Source: Olsenella sp. oral taxon 807 (lineage in GTDB: Bacteria; Actinomycetota; Coriobacteriia; Coriobacteriales; Atopobiaceae). Taken from it: 64,000 nucleotides of DNA. Positions 5,079 through 15,604 of this stretch are shown piece by piece. The translations under genes and the position numbers were made by a program. Within the stretch, counting starts at the first letter, position 1. Each line of letters begins with the position of its first letter. Below the pieces are notes generated by a model that saw only the letters and a program-made list of their open reading frames with translations, made no database searches and had not been told where the DNA came from. The stretch covers positions 248,001-312,000 of the forward strand of contig NZ_CP012069.2 in assembly GCF_001189515.2 (NCBI RefSeq), read 5' to 3'.

Positions 5079-5381
5079 CTAGTACACGGTACCGTAGCTG
5101 TAGCCCCAACCGTGCGCCGTGATGATCGAGTTCATCTGGTCGCAGAGGCGGCGCCTGGTGTAGCGACCTCCCGGCAGCAGATCGACGACCTCACGTAGGT
5201 CGCCACAGATGCCCTCGATGTCGGCGCGTACGAGGACGTCGATCTTCGATACGAGGCGCTTCGGGTCATCCTCAAAGAGTCCGTCTACCAAGTGTTGCAA
5301 CTCACCGTACTCGGGTGCGCCCGTGTCACCTGGCAGGACTGTCTGGTATTGGGAATGTTCGTTGTCTCTCATAGGCATCAT
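5079..5381 (-). CDS. small hypothetical protein, about 100 aa
   Basis: I do not recognise this family. The protein is acidic, with a central amphipathic stretch and a Tyr/Gly-rich end (ITAHGWGYSYGTVY). The segment LLPGGRYTRRRLCDQMNSI looks like a conserved helix-turn region. Codon use is GC3-rich like the neighbours, which argues it is real. The start is ambiguous among three clustered ATGs (5381, 5378, 5372); none has a good ribosome site. The open frame continues upstream into the family C repeats, which are unlikely to be coding. It is convergent with nhaA. Confidence 0.55.
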   Translation of the reverse strand: MMPMRDNEHSQYQTVLPGDTGAPEYGELQHLVDGLFEDDPKRLVSKIDVLVRADIEGICGDLREVVDLLPGGRYTRRRLCDQMNSIITAHGWGYSYGTVY

Positions 5382-5498
5382 GCGAGAGATGGTAGCGTAT
5401 GTCAGGACAGCGTGGAGGACTTCACGCAAACCCCCGCCAAGGAACGCGCTCTTGGCAAATGCCCCCGGCGAGCACTCCCGGCACGTGGCCCTCACGAA

Positions 5499-5635
5499 AG
5501 TGCCCCGCAGATTCTGGGGCACTTTGATCCGAACGCCAACTGGGCAAACGTTCTTGACAAGTGCCCCGCAGATTCTGGGGCACGTTGCGCAGGACTCCTC
5601 TGGGGCACGTTGCGCAGGACTCCTCTGGGATCACC
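5499..5635. repeat. GTGCCCC/GGGGCAC hairpin repeats, family C
   Basis: The hairpin AGTGCCCCGCAGATTCTGGG followed by GCAC occurs twice (about 5499-5523 and 5560-5584). Two direct copies of a unit reading TGGGGCACGTTGCGCAGGAC follow (to about 5635). Together they form a short array just upstream of the small minus-strand gene. The sequence differs from families A, B, D and E, but the architecture (short inverted repeats in a gap) is the same. Confidence 0.75.
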
Positions 5636-5845
5636 TGCGTTGGCCTGGCTCACCAAAGCCTCCAAATTACCTCACACCGCAGATCTGTGTCACGGCTATG
5701 CCTCGCGCAGGGAGTATACTGCCTTATGGCTCTCAGCTGCAGGAGCGTGTTGAGCCATGGACGGGTCAGGGGTAAAGCAGCGGTAGTCGAGGACCGCAGG
5801 TGACACGAGTGTGGTCTATCGCTGGGTATATGAAAGGAAACCAAT

Positions 5846-7147
5846 ATGTCAAAGACGATGAGGCGCAACGCGTATGAGCTGATGTCGGACGAGGAGCTGG
5901 AGCGCGCGATCGCAACGTTGGAGCGTCAGGTGGATGACATCCGCGCCGAGCGACTCTCGCTCGACATGGCCCGAGGCAAGCCCAGCCCCGCTCAGACCGC
6001 CCTCTCCAGACCCATGCTCGACCTCGTGAACTCTACGGCGTCGCTCAGCGACGGAGATGCGATAGTGGACAACTACGGTACACCGGAGGGCCTGCCTTCC
6101 GCTCGCGCCCTCGCGGCCGAGATCCTGGGCGTCAAGGCCGAGAACGTCGTGGTCTCTGGCTCCTCGAGCCTAAATCTCATGCATGATCTTGTGGCTCACG
6201 CATTCACGAACGGTGTCGCGGGCGCAGAGCCCTTCTACCGGCAGGGTGATGTCATATGGCTCTGCCCGTCTCCGGGCTATGATCGCCACTTCAAGATAAC
6301 CGAGGACCTCGGCATCAAGAACGTCGTCGTCCCAATGCGCGAGGACGGCCCCGACATGGACCTGGTGCAGCGTCTCGTTGAGGACGATCCCAAGGTCAAG
6401 GGCATCTGGTGTGTTCCCAAGTATGCCAACCCCACGGGTGTCACCTACTCTGACGAGGTAGTTCGTCGCTTTGCTGCCCTAAGGCCGGCGGCTTGCGACT
6501 TTCGTATCTACTGGGACAACGCCTACGCCGTGCATTGCTTTGGCGAGAAGGACGACGTGCTCCTTAACGTCTTTGACGCTCTTGCGGAGGCGGATGCCGA
6601 CAACCTGGTGTACGAGTTTGGCTCCACGGCCAAGATGACCTTCCCGAGTTCGGGCATCGCGTTTGTCGCGGCGGGCGACGAGGACATCAAGAGGGTCCGC
6701 GCCGCATTCGCCGTCGAGCGTGTGAGCTCCGAGAAGTTCTCTCAGCTCGCTCACCCGCGCTTTCTCAAGAATCTCGCGGGCGTCAAGGCTCACATGGCCA
6801 AGCATGCCAAGATCGTGGGGCCGCGCTTCGCCCTCGTGGAGCAGAAGCTCACGGATGGCCTTGCACAGTTGGGCGTCGCGCACTGGTCACACCCGCATGG
6901 CGGCTACTTCGTCTCGTTCGAGGGGCAGGAGGGCTCGGCTAAGCGAACCGTCGCTCTGATGGCGGAGCTTGGCGTCAAGCTCACGTCGGCAGGCGCCACC
7001 TATCCGTATGGCAAGGATCCCGCCGACTCCAACATCCGCATCGCGCCGACCTACCCCTCCCTCGACGACCTCCGTAAGGCCCTTGACGTCTTTGTGGTCG
7101 CGGTCAAGCTCGTCTCGGCCCAGCTTGCCCGGGAGAGCCGCGCCTGA
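5846..7147 (+). CDS. aspartate aminotransferase, class Ic type
   Basis: This is a 433-residue PLP enzyme transferring the amino group between aspartate and 2-oxoglutarate. Its sequence follows the actinobacterial class Ic AspAT family (Corynebacterium AspT type): RGKPSPAQ near residue 44, DNYGTPEG near 75, CPSPGYDRHF near 140, YANPTG near 193 and WDNAYAVH near 223. The PLP lysine is K263 in GSTAKMTF. Length is as expected. The start ATG has AAAGGA 8 bases upstream. It is monocistronic, with repeats of family C upstream and a 190-bp gap downstream. Confidence 0.92.
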   Translation: MSKTMRRNAYELMSDEELERAIATLERQVDDIRAERLSLDMARGKPSPAQTALSRPMLDLVNSTASLSDGDAIVDNYGTPEGLPSARALAAEILGVKAENVVVSGSSSLNLMHDLVAHAFTNGVAGAEPFYRQGDVIWLCPSPGYDRHFKITEDLGIKNVVVPMREDGPDMDLVQRLVEDDPKVKGIWCVPKYANPTGVTYSDEVVRRFAALRPAACDFRIYWDNAYAVHCFGEKDDVLLNVFDALAEADADNLVYEFGSTAKMTFPSSGIAFVAAGDEDIKRVRAAFAVERVSSEKFSQLAHPRFLKNLAGVKAHMAKHAKIVGPRFALVEQKLTDGLAQLGVAHWSHPHGGYFVSFEGQEGSAKRTVALMAELGVKLTSAGATYPYGKDPADSNIRIAPTYPSLDDLRKALDVFVVAVKLVSAQLARESRA

Positions 7148-8778: not shown

Positions 8779-8899
8779 GAGACGTGACTTGTGTGCGGCC
8801 GTCACCGTGCAGCCGCTATGACATACGACAAGGACGAGCCGTCGTGGCGCAATGCTGGAGACACAGCCAGCTTTCGCCGGCGGCAGGAGAGGTGTTCAC

Positions 8900-9769
8900 G
8901 TGTTTGGCATCGGGGAGACGGAGCTGGTCATCATCGTCACCTTCGCGTTTTTGCTCTTTGGTCCGGACAAGCTTCCGGGTATGGGCAGGACGATCGGTCG
9001 TGTGCTCAGGCAGTTCCGTGACGCTCAGGAGGGCTTTACGAAGGTTGTTCAGAGTGAGGTCCTAGATCCCTTGAACGAGGCGATGGGCGATGCGGGTGCA
9101 CAGAACGGTACCAAGCGTACCGCAGCCCTTGAGGAGGATGCGGACCGCAAGAGCAAGAGTACGGGCAAGAGCGTGCCCACAAAGGGTGGGGGCAAAACGT
9201 TTGCCGAGCGCAAGGCACAGGCAAAGACGAAGGACAGGAAGGCTGTCGGGACGGGGGGCGAGCAAAGGGGAGGCGTTGATGCTAGTGCGCTTTACCAGAA
9301 TACGAAGGAGAAGCATCCCTCCTCACGGAAGGGGTCTAAGGAGTCTGGGGGCAGCGCGCCTATGACTGTCGGTGACGTCGGCGCGCCAGCGTCTGTCGCT
9401 GTCCGGCCGACCACGACGGTCTCGACCTCCAAGCGTCTGTGTCTGCTTATGGGGACGTTCGGGCGCCCGCAGGCAGTCTCTGTGCCCAAGCGCCCTTCGG
9501 CGGCGTCAACGCTCACGTCAGCGCGCCTTTGTCTGCTGACGGTTGCGATGCCACCGCACCATCTGACAACGACGCCGCCCAGTCAGCTGGCGCTAGCGTC
9601 CACGCGTCGTCGCCCGCAGGTGGCGTCCACGTGCCTGACGCCCCCAACGTCCAGGCGCCGGCGCCTGCTGGCGGCCATGGCGCCGGCCCGCTGTCTGGCG
9701 GTGGCTTCACCGGAGCGCCTGCACCCGCCAACAATCCCGATGTCGTCCACGACGGGTGAGGGAGAGTAA
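8900..9769 (+). CDS. Sec-independent translocase TatA/TatB-like protein, apparent frameshift in its tail
   Basis: The N-terminus FGIGETELVIIVTFAFLLFG and PDKLPGMGRTIGRV is a classic TatA/B hydrophobic helix, glycine hinge and amphipathic helix. It is a component of the twin-arginine pore with TatC, encoded next. The GTG at 8900 follows GGAGAGGTG. The tail is exceptionally long: a Lys/Thr-rich segment, then a stretch that reads naturally in this frame only to about position 9395-9430. From there to 9759 the minus-one frame has the expected Ala/Pro/Gly composition and GC-rich third positions, ending in a TGA at 9757-9759. The annotated frame instead gives an Arg/Pro/Leu-rich tail to 9769. A one-base deletion, real or a sequencing error, is likely. 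The conserved Tat part is unaffected. Confidence 0.82.
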   Translation: MFGIGETELVIIVTFAFLLFGPDKLPGMGRTIGRVLRQFRDAQEGFTKVVQSEVLDPLNEAMGDAGAQNGTKRTAALEEDADRKSKSTGKSVPTKGGGKTFAERKAQAKTKDRKAVGTGGEQRGGVDASALYQNTKEKHPSSRKGSKESGGSAPMTVGDVGAPASVAVRPTTTVSTSKRLCLLMGTFGRPQAVSVPKRPSAASTLTSARLCLLTVAMPPHHLTTTPPSQLALASTRRRPQVASTCLTPPTSRRRRLLAAMAPARCLAVASPERLHPPTIPMSSTTGEGE

Positions 9770-9771
9770 CC

Positions 9772-12603
9772 ATGCCCATTGGACCAGCACGCATGCCCCT
9801 GATGGATCACCTTGGCGAGCTGAGGCGCCGTCTTGCGATCGTTGCCGTGTCGCTCCTCGTCACGTCTGTCGTGGTCTATGTTGCCACACCCACTCTCATA
9901 GACATCATGCTCGACCCTATCAGGGATGTGTTCGAGTCAAACGAGCTGACGGTCCTCAGCGTACTCGGCGGCTTCACGATTCGCTTCAAGGTGGCCTTCT
10001 TCTTCAGTCTCATCATTTGCACACCAGTCATCGTCTGGGAGGTCATGGGCTTCTTTCTGCCCGCCCTCAAGCCCAGCGAGCGCAGGTGGGTGATACCTAC
10101 GGTGGCCGCGATGATCCTACTCTTCTTTTTGGGCATGGGTTTTTGCTATCTGGTGATCCAGAAGCCTACCATTGGATGGATGGTAGCCCAGAGCCGTGCC
10201 ATCGCAGATGTCATTCCAGAAGCCGAGGACTTCCTCAACATCATGATGCTCCTGGAGATTGGCTTCGGCTTTGCCTTCCAGCTGCCGCTCATCGTCTTCT
10301 ACCTCTCCATCCTGCACGTGGTCCCCTACAAGACCTTCCGCTCGCAGTGGCGCTACGTCTACATCGTGCTGCTTGTGATCTCGAGCGTTGTCACGCCTGA
10401 TGCCTCGCCGGTGACCATGATCCTGATGTTCGCCGCGCTCATTGCCCTCTATGAGATCGCACTTTTGATCGCGCGCTTTGTGCTCATTGCGCGGGACGGC
10501 AAGGAGTCACTCAAGTGGAGCCGGGAGGAGTACCAGGAATATGGGGACTCGATCCGACCCCATGAGGGAGATAAAGGAGGGACCGTAGACGCGCGCGCAG
10601 CTCAAGACTCTGACGCCCGGAGAGGCCGGGGGATCGCTTTGGGTCATCCAGGCCTTACGGTCCTGCGCTTGGTGGCCCTCGCCGCCTGCCTGGTGTTCGC
10701 GATCATGCTGGCTACGGCGCCGCCCCGTGAGGCGCCGAGGGTCGGTACCATCGGCACCGGCTGCTCCTACGAACTCGACACATGGTCTGGCACGCTCACC
10801 ATCTACCCCACGGACGGCGCGTCGGGGGAGATGGCTCGCGTCCGTGACGCGCTGTCTGACGATGGCGACCTCTTGGACGCCATCAGATCGGTAACCGTCA
10901 AGGAGGGCGTCGTGGCGCCCGCAGACTCAAGTTACCTCTTCGGGAGCCTGCGCGCGATGGAGTCTCTTGACCTCTCGGGTCTCGACACCTCGCGGGCCAC
11001 CGACATGAAAGGTATGTTCCAGAGCTGCGGGTCTCTCCGATCCCTGGACCTCTCGGGCCTCGACACCTCGCGGGTCACCGACATGGAGGATATGTTCTCC
11101 ATCTGTTTGTCGATCTCCTCCCTCGACCTCTCGCCGCTCGACACCTCGCAGGTCACAAACATGAAAGACATGTTCTCCAACTGCTTTTCGCTTCGATCCC
11201 TCGACCTCTCACCGCTCGACACCTCGCGAGTCACCGACATGTGGGGCATGTTCCAGGGCTGTTCGTCGCTTCGATCCCTCGACCTCTCGCCGCTCGACAC
11301 CTCGCAGGTCCAGTACATGGGGTACATGTTCTCCAACTGCTCGTCGCTCTCGTCCCTCGACCTCTCGCCGCTCAAAACCTCGCGAGTCACCGACATGGGA
11401 GGTATGTTCTGGGGCTGCTCGTCGCTCTCGTCCCTCGACCTCTCGCCGCTCGATACCTCGAGGGTTACGGACATGAGCAGCCCTATCGGGTTCGGCATGT
11501 TTGAGGACTGCTCGTCGCTCTCCTCCCTCGACCTCTCGCCGCTCGACACCTCGCAAGTCACAAAAATGAGTGGCATGTTCAGGGGCTGCTCGTCGCTCTC
11601 GTCCCTCGACCTCTCGCCACTCAAAACTTCGCAGGTCACGGATATGAGTGGCATGTTCAAGGGCTGCTCGTCGCTTCGATCCCTCGACCTCTCGCCGCTC
11701 GACACCTCGCAGGTCACGGACATGTGGGGCATGTTCGCCGACTGCTCGTCGCTTCGATCCCTCGACCTCTCGCCGCTCAAAACCTCGCAGGTCCAGTCTA
11801 TGGGGGGCATGTTTGATGGCTGCTCGTCGCTTCGATCCCTCGACCTCTCGCCGCTCGACACCTCGCAGGTCCAGCATATGGGGTACATGTTCGCCGACTG
11901 CTCGTCGCTCGCGTCCTTGGACCTCTCGCCGCTCAAAACCTTGCGGGTCGAGAGCATGTGGTACATGTTCTCCGGCTGCTCATCGCTCCGATCCCTCGAC
12001 CTCTCGCCGCTCGACACCTCGCAGGTCAAAAACATGAAAGACATGTTCTCCGGCTGCGCATCACTCCGATCCCTCGATCTCTCGTCGCTCAAAACCTCGC
12101 GGGTCATGGACATGAGTGACATGTTTGATGGCTGCTCGTCGCTCCGATCCCTCGACCTCTCCCGCCTTGACACCTCGAAGGTCACACGCATGGACTTCAT
12201 GTTCTCCGGCTGCTCCTCGCTCGCGTCCCTCGACCTCTCCCGCCTTGACACCTCGAAGGTCACACGCATGGACTTCATGTTCTCCGGCTGCTCCGCGCTC
12301 GCGTCCCTCGACCTCTCGGGCTGGGACACCTCAGAGGTCACCGGCATGTGGGGGATGTTCTTTGGCTGCTCCTCGCTCTCCTCGCTGGCGGTCGGGGAGG
12401 GGTGCGGGGGCGTCCTCTCGGCCGACAGGCACACGGCGCTCCCCGCGGGCGTGGGCAGCAGGGGGTGGTACTCCGAGAGGGACAAGAGGTGGCTCACACT
12501 GGGCGAGCTCTCGTCCTCTCGCCAGGGGGTGGCCGACACCTACACGGCCCCCGAGGCCTGGAGGTCGCTGGTGTCGCCGCAGGCGGCCCAAACGTCGCCG
12601 TAG
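9772..12603 (+). CDS. tatC: TatC fused in frame to a BspA-type leucine-rich repeat surface domain
   Basis: Residues 1-265 are a complete TatC: MDHLGELRRRL (twin-arginine signal recognition region), six membrane helices and the ending LKWSREEYQEYGD. A hydrophilic linker follows, then a seventh hydrophobic helix about 295-315 (VLRLVALAACLVFAIMLA), a globular stretch, 18 DUF285 repeats (residues 399-871) and a short C-terminal cap. TatC is normally N-in/C-in, so a seventh helix would place the repeats outside the cell. AAAGGAGG at 10573-10580 has no start codon after it, and TGA/TAA codons at 10563 and 10572 lie one frame away. This suggests that tatC once stopped here before a separate surface-protein gene. 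No stop or frameshift breaks the fusion. Confidence 0.88.
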   Translation: MPIGPARMPLMDHLGELRRRLAIVAVSLLVTSVVVYVATPTLIDIMLDPIRDVFESNELTVLSVLGGFTIRFKVAFFFSLIICTPVIVWEVMGFFLPALKPSERRWVIPTVAAMILLFFLGMGFCYLVIQKPTIGWMVAQSRAIADVIPEAEDFLNIMMLLEIGFGFAFQLPLIVFYLSILHVVPYKTFRSQWRYVYIVLLVISSVVTPDASPVTMILMFAALIALYEIALLIARFVLIARDGKESLKWSREEYQEYGDSIRPHEGDKGGTVDARAAQDSDARRGRGIALGHPGLTVLRLVALAACLVFAIMLATAPPREAPRVGTIGTGCSYELDTWSGTLTIYPTDGASGEMARVRDALSDDGDLLDAIRSVTVKEGVVAPADSSYLFGSLRAMESLDLSGLDTSRATDMKGMFQSCGSLRSLDLSGLDTSRVTDMEDMFSICLSISSLDLSPLDTSQVTNMKDMFSNCFSLRSLDLSPLDTSRVTDMWGMFQGCSSLRSLDLSPLDTSQVQYMGYMFSNCSSLSSLDLSPLKTSRVTDMGGMFWGCSSLSSLDLSPLDTSRVTDMSSPIGFGMFEDCSSLSSLDLSPLDTSQVTKMSGMFRGCSSLSSLDLSPLKTSQVTDMSGMFKGCSSLRSLDLSPLDTSQVTDMWGMFADCSSLRSLDLSPLKTSQVQSMGGMFDGCSSLRSLDLSPLDTSQVQHMGYMFADCSSLASLDLSPLKTLRVESMWYMFSGCSSLRSLDLSPLDTSQVKNMKDMFSGCASLRSLDLSSLKTSRVMDMSDMFDGCSSLRSLDLSRLDTSKVTRMDFMFSGCSSLASLDLSRLDTSKVTRMDFMFSGCSALASLDLSGWDTSEVTGMWGMFFGCSSLSSLAVGEGCGGVLSADRHTALPAGVGSRGWYSERDKRWLTLGELSSSRQGVADTYTAPEAWRSLVSPQAAQTSP
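10966..12384 (+). repeat. 18 tandem 78-bp repeats encoding DUF285 (BspA-like) units
   Basis: There are eighteen 26-residue units of form LDLSPLDTSxVTDMxxMFxG plus CSSLxS, in register without gaps, except that unit 7 has a 5-residue insertion (SPIGF). The repeats are highly similar at DNA level, notably the ctcgacctctcgccgctc block, so copy number is expected to vary by recombination. Units 16 and 17 are almost identical. Confidence 0.95.
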
Positions 12604-12937
12604 GGACAGCCGGGTTGGGGTCACCCCGGCCCCGGCCGGCGAGGTGATGCCACTCGCGGGTGAGGCACGCGAGGGTTCCGATCACGTCGGGTTCCCCGGG
12701 GTCCTCGGCGGCAGGCGTCCGTCAGGCGGCGGTCCGCACGAGGGTGCAGGCAGGTTACGTGTCGCTCGCTGGCGACAGTACATGTGTGGACAGCTGGCGG
12801 CAAGCTACGTGCAGTCAGCTAGCGACCAGAGGGGGTCTCGGGCCGCAGGTTCGGCGCAATCTGCTATAGTCTCCAACCCATGGGTGGGACCTTATGCCGC
12901 GCCCACCCGACCAAGAGGCACGAAGGGAGCGTGAGCC
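12604..12937 (+). other. 334-bp gap before topA
   Basis: It contains no gene. The first 60 bp hold GC-rich inverted repeats without a T-run. An extended minus-10 element at 12862-12870 is the only promoter-like signal. Confidence 0.5.
12862..12870 (+). promoter_or_regulatory. extended minus-10 promoter element for the topA operon
   Basis: TG-C-TATAGT lies 68 bp upstream of the topA start, with no good minus-35. The same TGC-TATAnT shape recurs upstream of several other genes in the window (28164, 37882, 40296, 51747). Confidence 0.55.
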
Positions 12938-15604
12938 TTGAAGCTCGTTGTCACAGAGAAGAATGACGCCGCACAGCAGATCGCCCGGCTCCTCTCGAGC
13001 GTTGGCAAGCCCAAGGCCGAGAAGGTCTATGACACGCCCATCTACCGCTTCACGCACGATGGGGAAGAGTGGGTCACCATAGGGCTTCGTGGACACATCA
13101 TGGCACCGGACTTCCCGCGCGAGCTGCGCTACAGCAAGGCCGAGGGCTGGTTTGCCGTGAGCGAGGATGGCGAGCTGCTCTCTGCCGCCGTACCCGACGC
13201 CTTGGCAAAGCCCCCCTATGACAGCAAACGCAAGCCCTTTCTCGCCGACGGCATCGACATCAAGGGCTGGAAGGTCCCAAGTCTTCCCTACCTGGTCTGG
13301 GCCCCCATCGAGAAGCTCCCCGCCGAGAAGGGCATCATCCGTGCCCTCAAGAACCTGGCCAAGAAGGCTGACTCCATCGTCATCGGCACGGACTTCGATC
13401 GTGAGGGCGAGCTCATCGGCTCGGACGCCCTGCGCCAGATGCTCGAGGTCGCGCCTGATGCCCCCGTCTCTCGTGCGCGCTACTCGGCCTTCACGAAGGC
13501 CGAGATAGACCATGCCTTTGCGAACCTCGTCGAGCTTGACCAGGATCTTGCCGATGCGGGAGAAAGCCGCCAGTACATTGACCTCATCTGGGGCGCCGTG
13601 CTCACGCGCTACCTCACGATGGCCCGCTTCGGCGGCTTTGGCAATGTCCGCTCGGCAGGTCGCGTGCAGACGCCCACGCTGGCCCTCGTCGTCGAGCGCG
13701 AGCGTGAGCGCGAGGCGTTCGTGCCCGAGGACTACTGGGTACTCTCGGGCATGCTGGCTCCCAAGGGTGTGCAGGACGAGGAGCAGCGCTTCAGGGCCAC
13801 GCACGCGACGGCCCGCTTCAAGGACAAGGCAGCGGCAGACGCCGCGTACGCCCGCGTCAAGGACGCCCGCACGGCCACGGTCAGCGACATCGAGAGGAGG
13901 CGCTTCACGACCAGGCCTCCTGCGCCCTTCAACACGACCTCGCTCCAGGCTGCCTCTTCCTCTGTCGGCCTCACGCCGGCACGTACGATGCGCGTCGCCG
14001 AGTCCTTGTACATGGACGGCCTCATCTCGTACCCACGCGTGGACAACACGGTGTATCCTCCCTCACTCGACCTGCGCGCCTGCGTGCAGAGCCTTACAGG
14101 CGTGCCGCAGTACGCCCCCTACTGCAGGGAGCTCCTGTCCGCAGGCAAGCTCGTTGCCACGCGCGGCAAGCAGGAGACGACCGACCATCCCCCCATCTAT
14201 CCCACGGCTGCGGCCGACCCCGACAAGCTCGACGCGGCCGCGTGGAAGCTTTACAACCTGGTCGCCCGCCGCTTTCTTGCGACGCTCTCGAAGGCGTCGG
14301 TGAGCGAGTCCACGAAGCTCTCCCTCGACGTGGCCGGCGAGCCCTTCAACGCATCAGGCGTCGTTGTCGTGGAGGAGGGCTTCAGGGCCATCTATCCCTT
14401 TGGCCAGAAGAAGGACAAGGTCCTGCCAGCGCTCGCTGTGGGGGATGACTGTGACGTCCACTCGATGGAGCTCGACGCCAAGCAGACCGAACCGCCCGCC
14501 CGCTACAGCCAGGGGCGACTCATCCAAGAGATGGAGAAGCGCGGCCTCGGGACCAAGTCGACCCGTGCCTCCATCATCCAGCGCCTCTTTGACGTCAAGT
14601 ACCTCAAGGGCGACCCCGTGGAGCCAAGCCAGCTCGGCATGGCCGTCATCAAGGCGCTCACCGCCTACGCGCCGCACGTCACGAGCCCCGACATGACCTC
14701 GGAGCTCGAGGCTGACATGACCAAGGTTGCCGAGGGGACAGACAGCCAGGAGCAGGTCGTCATGCACTCTCGCGCGCTCCTCTCGGGCATGGTCGATGCC
14801 CTGATCGAGCACAAGGACGACCTAGGCGAGGCCATCGCCGATGCGGTCACGGCGGATGCCAAGGTGGGAAGCTGTCCTAGCTGTGGCAAGGACCTCGTGA
14901 TGAAGCGCTCTGCCAAGACGCGCGGCAGCTTCATTGGCTGCATGGGCTGGCCCGACTGCGACGTCACCTACCCCGTGCCGTCCAACGTGAAGGTGGAGCC
15001 AATCGAGGGAGAGGCGGGTGTGTGCCCTACGTGTGGGGCGCCTCGCATCAAGTGCAAGCCGTTTCGCTCCAAGGCCTACGAGCTGTGCGTGAACCCCATG
15101 TGCGAGACCAACCGTGAGCCAGACGTGATCGTGGGGGAGTGCTCGAAGTGCAAGGGGGAGGGCCGTCATGGCGATCTTGTCGCCCACAAGAGTGAAAAAA
15201 CGGCCAAGCGCTTCATTCGCTGCACCAACTACGACGAGTGCAAGGTGAGCTATCCTCTGCCACAGCGCGGTGAGATCCACGCCACGGGCGAGACCTGCCC
15301 CGACTGCGGGGCTCCCATCGTCGAGATCGTGACGGCCCGTGGCCCGTGGCGCATCTGCGTCAATATGGACTGTCCCAGCAAAGAGAAGAAGACCGCATCG
15401 GGCCGGAAGGCCGCGTCGGGGCGCACGGGTACGTCGGGCAAGAAGGCCGCGCCGAGCCGGAAGGCCGCGTCGGCTAAAACGGGCACATCAGGCCGCAGTT
15501 CTCGCGCTACCGCAAACAGGCGCAAGACGGGTACGGGCGCGCACAAACCTGGCACAAAGAGGGCAGCCAAGCGCTCCGGCTCTGCAGAGGACTCAAAGTC
15601 ATGA
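12938..15604 (+). CDS. topA: type IA DNA topoisomerase with four C-terminal zinc fingers
   Basis: This 888-residue enzyme relaxes negative supercoils through a tyrosine-DNA intermediate. The TOPRIM domain opens with KLVVTEKNDAAQQIA and holds TDFDREGELIG near residue 150. The active-site region is DGLISYPRVDNTVYP near residue 360. Four Cys4-type fingers follow from about 645 (CPSCG, CPTCG, CSKCKG and CPDCG segments with their second Cys pairs), then a basic Ser/Ala/Lys/Gly tail typical of actinobacterial TopA. Start is TTG, supported by GAAGGGAG 8 bases upstream; no in-frame ATG lies nearby. The stop overlaps tmk by 4 bp. Confidence 0.95.
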   Translation: MKLVVTEKNDAAQQIARLLSSVGKPKAEKVYDTPIYRFTHDGEEWVTIGLRGHIMAPDFPRELRYSKAEGWFAVSEDGELLSAAVPDALAKPPYDSKRKPFLADGIDIKGWKVPSLPYLVWAPIEKLPAEKGIIRALKNLAKKADSIVIGTDFDREGELIGSDALRQMLEVAPDAPVSRARYSAFTKAEIDHAFANLVELDQDLADAGESRQYIDLIWGAVLTRYLTMARFGGFGNVRSAGRVQTPTLALVVEREREREAFVPEDYWVLSGMLAPKGVQDEEQRFRATHATARFKDKAAADAAYARVKDARTATVSDIERRRFTTRPPAPFNTTSLQAASSSVGLTPARTMRVAESLYMDGLISYPRVDNTVYPPSLDLRACVQSLTGVPQYAPYCRELLSAGKLVATRGKQETTDHPPIYPTAAADPDKLDAAAWKLYNLVARRFLATLSKASVSESTKLSLDVAGEPFNASGVVVVEEGFRAIYPFGQKKDKVLPALAVGDDCDVHSMELDAKQTEPPARYSQGRLIQEMEKRGLGTKSTRASIIQRLFDVKYLKGDPVEPSQLGMAVIKALTAYAPHVTSPDMTSELEADMTKVAEGTDSQEQVVMHSRALLSGMVDALIEHKDDLGEAIADAVTADAKVGSCPSCGKDLVMKRSAKTRGSFIGCMGWPDCDVTYPVPSNVKVEPIEGEAGVCPTCGAPRIKCKPFRSKAYELCVNPMCETNREPDVIVGECSKCKGEGRHGDLVAHKSEKTAKRFIRCTNYDECKVSYPLPQRGEIHATGETCPDCGAPIVEIVTARGPWRICVNMDCPSKEKKTASGRKAASGRTGTSGKKAAPSRKAASAKTGTSGRSSRATANRRKTGTGAHKPGTKRAAKRSGSAEDSKS

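Follow-up and report, generated by a model that had tools for sequence, protein, structure and literature searches.

The window, by which we mean the whole 64,000-nucleotide stretch of DNA analysed here, contains a tatC gene that continues in frame into a repeat-rich gene of the surface-protein type. We consider it likely that the fusion is real and specific to its lineage, with a TatC that has kept its function and bears an extracytoplasmic domain of repeats. Judged by sequence comparison, a promoterless surface-protein gene has become attached to the 3' end of tatC, bringing its own anchor along as the "seventh helix" of the product.

The reading frame and its modules

Translation of the plus-strand frame at 9772-12603 gave a single ORF of 943 aa without internal stop, the modules of which are collected in Table 1. 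Pfam TatC matches residues 12-220 (E 4e-50, 170.9 bits against a cut-off of 25.1), and the NCBIfam model TIGR00945 (tatC) scores 137.3 against a cut-off of 132.7. The same protein matches Pfam DUF285 (PF03382) with 339.8 bits and NCBIfam TIGR02167, "PARCEL repeat", with 530 bits in 17 stretches. Counting the units individually gave 18 repeats, mostly of 26 aa, at residues 395-867, followed by a C-terminal region. The ORF, the Pfam and NCBIfam matches and the unit count thus bear out the original prediction of 18 DUF285 repeats in one frame with TatC. An intact TatC had also been claimed, and this part stands, but not its end at residue 265, since homology to other TatCs stops at about residues 257-258.

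The AlphaFold model of the fusion (34 sequences in the alignment, mean pLDDT 77) consists of the TatC helices, a low-confidence linker at about 262-292, a helix at 293-314 and a repeat region at fair confidence. Hydropathy places the peak of the seventh hydrophobic segment at residues 295-313, so that the predicted helix at 295-315 is recovered by both approaches. Foldseek matched the first part to solved TatC structures (4b4a with a TMt of 0.83, 4hts and 9e01) with their six-helix fold, and a sequence search against structures returned TatC as well as leucine-rich-repeat structures. With regard to dyad symmetry of the repeat coding units, the folding z-scores of single units ranged from -1.97 to +1.79. 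Opposite the repeats lies an antisense open frame of 535 aa (10932-12539, minus strand); many PARCEL coding regions are reported to have antisense frames overlapping them (PMC2996958).

Table 1. Coordinates of the fusion modules and neighbouring genes in the window
Feature	Position	Strand	Evidence
TatC module, residues 1-258, six helices	9772..10545	+	Pfam/NCBIfam, O. profusa identity, dN/dS, Foldseek
Junction zone, few bases separating tatC-like from repeat-gene-like sequence	10546..10553	+	DNA alignments
PARCEL/BspA-type gene's former 5' leader, including its ribosome-binding site, now part of the translated frame	10554..10584	+	Paralogue leader identity
Site of the former start codon (GTA here, ATG in paralogues)	10585..10587	+	Paralogue alignments
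Seventh transmembrane helix, residues 293-314	10648..10713	+	Hydropathy, AlphaFold helix, paralogue alignment
N-terminal cap domain (GCSYELD...LTIYPTDG...), common to paralogues	10714..10953	+	Alignment, strands in model
18 DUF285/PARCEL (TIGR02167) repeats, mostly 26 aa	10954..12372	+	Profile matches, unit count
C-terminal region, DNA ~96% identical to p3036	12373..12603	+	DNA comparison, dS
tatB-like gene, directly 5' of tatC	8852..9769	+	Pfam TatA_B_E
Topoisomerase gene, separated here from tatC by the repeat gene	12938..15604	+	Pfam, gene order in relatives

The junction and the source of the repeat gene

The genome, 3.21 Mb in one contig and 99.4% complete, has 45 DUF285 matches, grouped at about a dozen sites. 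The second half of the fusion has paralogues at about 3.036, 3.040, 3.046, 1.477 and 1.481 Mb, the first three of which are referred to below as p3036, p3040 and p3046. The alignment of the window to the 3' end of tatC from Olsenella profusa stops at about 10538, and DNA homology to the nearest paralogues begins at 10554 and ends at the stop codon at 12603. Window positions 10554-10584 are identical to the leader of p3036 at 27 of 31 bases and to that of p3046 at 26 of 31, an agreement far beyond chance. The leader reads CCGACCCCACGAGGGAGACGGAGGAGGGACC-ATG in p3036 and CCGACCCCATGAGGGAGATAAAGGAGGGACC-GTA in the window.

The original prediction had placed an orphan AAAGGAGG at 10573 and off-frame stops at 10563 and 10572, and had taken them as traces of two merged genes. 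The coordinates are correct (AAAGGAGG occupies 10573-10580, and the stops are TGA 10563 and TAA 10572), and the merger holds. Because the paralogues carry GGAGGAGGGACC-ATG where the window has AAAGGAGG and GTA, AAAGGAGG is, on the evidence of these alignments, what was once the ribosome-binding site of the second gene. Residues ~262-271 are encoded by the former leader of the repeat gene, so the two off-frame stops belong to that leader, and their reading as relics of the tatC end does not hold. The SD-like AAAGGAGG is intact though apparently unused, which suits either a young fusion or some hidden use.

In all five paralogues a TATACT motif stands ~45-85 bases 5' of the ATG; upstream of the repeat part the window lacks this promoter-like motif, and a search of 10300-13000 gave no sigma-70-like promoter. 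The alignment further shows homology between helix 7 and the anchor helix with which the paralogues begin. The topology argued from the odd number of helices, with the repeats outside the cell, is therefore workable. On the 3' side of the stop codon the window and the paralogues show no clear alignment; the 3.036 and 1.477 Mb paralogues share their 3' flanks. Alignment to relatives revealed no leftover tatC 3' end downstream of the repeat gene, and only the start region of the topoisomerase gene, including the promoter-like motif TCTGCTATAGT, aligns to them there.

Conservation and history of the two parts

A genome search returned a single tatC match and no second copy. One tatA is located elsewhere in the genome, and Tat has likely clients, as seven Tat signal-peptide matches score above cut-off. 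The TatC part is 78% identical to that of the nearest named relative, O. profusa F0195, whose TatC ends SREEYQEHRYEEGTE. Its dN/dS of 0.15-0.19 is the same as between relatives, the invariant columns of the alignment include P5, R20, F176 and D210, and at 106 conserved columns there are four departures, all conservative. The terminal branch is the longest in the genus (0.28 versus 0.18-0.19 for two others), indicating a mild acceleration. Being the only copy and under normal constraint, TatC is most likely still active in Tat export.

To place the fusion among relatives, 140 Atopobiaceae genomes were searched, of which 135, including the window's own, gave a TatC match; no comparable TatC fusion was seen among the 134 others. 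The open frame with TatC spans 947 codons in the window versus 259-341 in nearly all others, a few fragmentary matches on broken contigs being uninformative. Six relatives have TatC frames of 420-522 stop to stop, yet TatC proper stops at 259-271 aa, and these were rejected as further fusions: it ends at 262-263 aa in G122, G155 and G100, at 271 aa in G006, and at 259 and 263 aa in the named loci corresponding to G035 and G008. Across 80 named loci taken from public genomes, TatC frames end at 253-306 aa with a single exception, which is broken at residue 80. The comparison of tatC 3' ends proposed with the original prediction thus found ordinary short TatCs in the relatives and the fusion only in the window's species. 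At most Atopobiaceae loci the topoisomerase gene lies within about 330 bases 3' of tatC.

The C-terminal third of tatB (9320-9760) encodes an odd Arg/Pro/Ala/Ser-rich tail unlike that of relatives, and an alternative-frame ORF at 9439-9759 also looks coding. A tatB frameshift, considered as a sign of poor assembly, was rejected: the frame has the highest GC3 throughout and closes, as it does in O. profusa, at the stop adjoining the start codon of tatC, so that no clear error emerges.

The repeat part runs for 673 codons without stop or frameshift. Its N-terminal region, compared with the four closest paralogues, gave a dS of 0.40-0.56 and a dN/dS of about 0.35-0.46, and it has 14 private amino-acid changes versus 11 silent ones. 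For the repeat part, dN/dS to these four was 0.35-0.42, lower than among the paralogues themselves. The last ~235 bases, in contrast, are ~96% identical to p3036, and dS to this paralogue is 0.036 over the last 72 codons versus 0.42 in the N-terminal region. This 3' identity probably arose by gene conversion, and the locus probably still exchanges sequence with its family. The coding variant GACCTCTCGCCGCTC, of the SPLDTS/SPLKTS type, occurs 10 times in the genome, always at the fusion locus, and no source of SPLDTS-type repeats was found elsewhere in the genome. These values indicate that the repeat copy has a long separate history; the fusion itself stays undated by these comparisons.

Some features of the family were seen in passing. 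Locus L040 (G000:C1:3034000-3049000) is made up of repeated cassettes in which a PARCEL gene stands beside an oppositely oriented gene for a hydrophobic, probably multi-helix protein of ~320 aa; two of these proteins have no NCBIfam match. Within it, p3040 (L040 about 5160-6790, minus strand) is broken by a 2-base insertion (p3036 has TACATGAGC where p3040 reads TACATATGAGC) and is disrupted again towards its 3' end. Two giant PARCEL proteins of 1868 and 2039 aa (L041 2087-7693 and L042 763-6882) look nearly identical over long non-repeat stretches, contain proline-rich segments and end in putative S-layer-homology modules.

Formation, working and comparison with known systems

The pieces of the fusion come from sequence comparison, and from them we infer the sequence of events. 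A copy of one of this genome's PARCEL/BspA-type surface genes would have landed behind tatC, ahead of the topoisomerase gene. The joint would have cost tatC its last few codons and its stop, and the surface gene its promoter, while 31 leader bases were kept in frame. The change of the surface gene's ATG to GTA would have been costless once the gene was read through from tatC. The tat operon would then be transcribed and translated in full into one 943-residue protein. By homology and the model, this protein would consist of a six-helix TatC, a cytoplasmic C-tail, a helix 7 derived from the former anchor and inserted N-in, and an extracytoplasmic solenoid, so that the repeat domain would ride on TatC. 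By rough estimate, 18 coils stacked at ~5 angstrom each make a solenoid of just ~9 nm, and the domain of this walled Gram-positive cell would therefore probably sit in the wall zone without protruding from the surface. That TatC can tolerate C-terminal cargo is plausible, since in E. coli TatC with mCherry fused to its C-terminus can take over the function of TatC (PMC3732296); the mCherry cargo is cytoplasmic, however. A membrane-anchored extension could also impair Tat, since the TatC C-tail is important for export in Bacillus subtilis (review PMC6708511). Most likely the tethered domain is tolerated, with wall-zone binding as a possible side use. That the fusion is maintained as useful, the domain for example gripping the wall or capturing or chaperoning emerging Tat substrates, seems to us improbable.

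The alternative that touches the junction itself is a sequencing or assembly error, in which tatC truly stops near 10563-10588, the repeat gene is separate and a one-base indel fakes the fusion. The species is represented by one genome, a base-calling indel in about 10540-10562 could falsely join the genes, candidate sites are present (GGGG 10543-10546 and CCCC 10558-10561), and TGA 10563, TAA 10572 and TAG 10586 stand nearby in the other frames, so that a shifted tatC frame would close at TGA 10563 or TAG 10586. The 253-306 aa at which the TatCs of relatives end, and the two disruptions of p3040, which reveal frame errors or decay in this genome, point the same way. An indel, however, leaves unexplained the two base changes from ATG to GTA, which are expected under read-through from tatC. 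The SD has no ATG, GTG or TTG at a workable spacing, so that a separate repeat gene would also be startless. The contig is single and 99.4% complete, tatC and the topoisomerase gene are intact, and we regard such an error as unlikely. A real fusion is also compatible with a decaying passenger, a functionless leftover translated behind TatC and possibly degraded, and this we hold to be possible though doubtful. The loss of its own promoter motif and start codon, its presence in only one species and the excess of private amino-acid over silent changes favour decay, whereas the 673 open codons, a dN/dS below 0.43 against the four closest paralogues, the private repeat variant spread across the array and the recently homogenised 3' end speak against it, though indirectly, as most of this latter history may predate the fusion.

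The remaining alternatives concern the product. Helix 7 derives from an N-terminal targeting sequence, and signal peptidase could cleave after it; TatC would then keep seven helices, and the repeat domain would be set free into the wall or medium. More distant paralogues have an apparently clear A-x-A site (SATPARA-EVKTG, L041), but in the subfamily of the fusion the corresponding stretch is LATAPPREAPRV, which is proline-rich with proline after the candidate alanines. Proline in that position disfavours signal-peptidase cleavage, and we think little of the chances of a split product. It is less probable still that the repeat protein is additionally made on its own, initiated internally at a codon like TTG 10639. 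This codon is in frame, retains the whole anchor helix and has GGGGGA a few bases 5', but the SD is weak, the ATG of the paralogues stands 18 codons earlier and a promoter was not found. If the continuous fusion is real and expressed, it would show in a natural setting that the core Tat receptor, encoded by one gene only, can accommodate a seventh helix plus a large domain across the membrane. It would also exemplify the grafting of a repeat-rich surface gene onto a housekeeping gene, with the leader translated, the start and promoter lost, and the 3' end of the grafted gene still exchanging with its family. Should selection keep the fusion, the Tat machine would have an unexpected accessory domain.

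Among known systems, the TatC family (PF00902, TIGR00945) shares with the fusion the whole conserved six-helix core, the linkage to tatB and the position before the topoisomerase gene. Elsewhere in the Atopobiaceae, TatC ends at ~258-278 aa, whereas the fusion has about 685 further residues including the seventh helix. The BspA-like paralogues of its own genome (about 3.036, 3.046 and 1.477 Mb) have the same anchor, cap domain, repeats and C-terminal region, and those at 3.036 and 3.046 Mb also the leader; unlike the fusion, they are free-standing, with an ATG start and the upstream TATACT promoter-like motif. A literature search found no natural TatC-repeat fusion: "TatC" does not occur in the PARCEL paper (PMC2996958), and the text of a TatC diversity survey (PMC3827258) does not contain "fusion", "fused" or "extension". 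PARCEL/DUF285 proteins (TIGR02167, PF03382; Roske et al. 2010, PMC2996958) resemble the fusion in their tandem ~25-26-residue repeats, membrane targeting, lineage-expanded paralogues, within-genome variation and shuffling, and overlapping antisense ORF. They differ in that the membrane part of the fusion is a housekeeping translocase subunit and the dyad symmetry of its units appears weak. The same paper includes, as its category G, PARCEL proteins that have more than two transmembrane segments, and dissemination and shuffling of the repeats among membrane-protein genes have been described (PMC2996958). The event thus falls into a known class, in which PARCEL repeats are carried by a polytopic membrane protein, with TatC as a host protein new in the searched literature.
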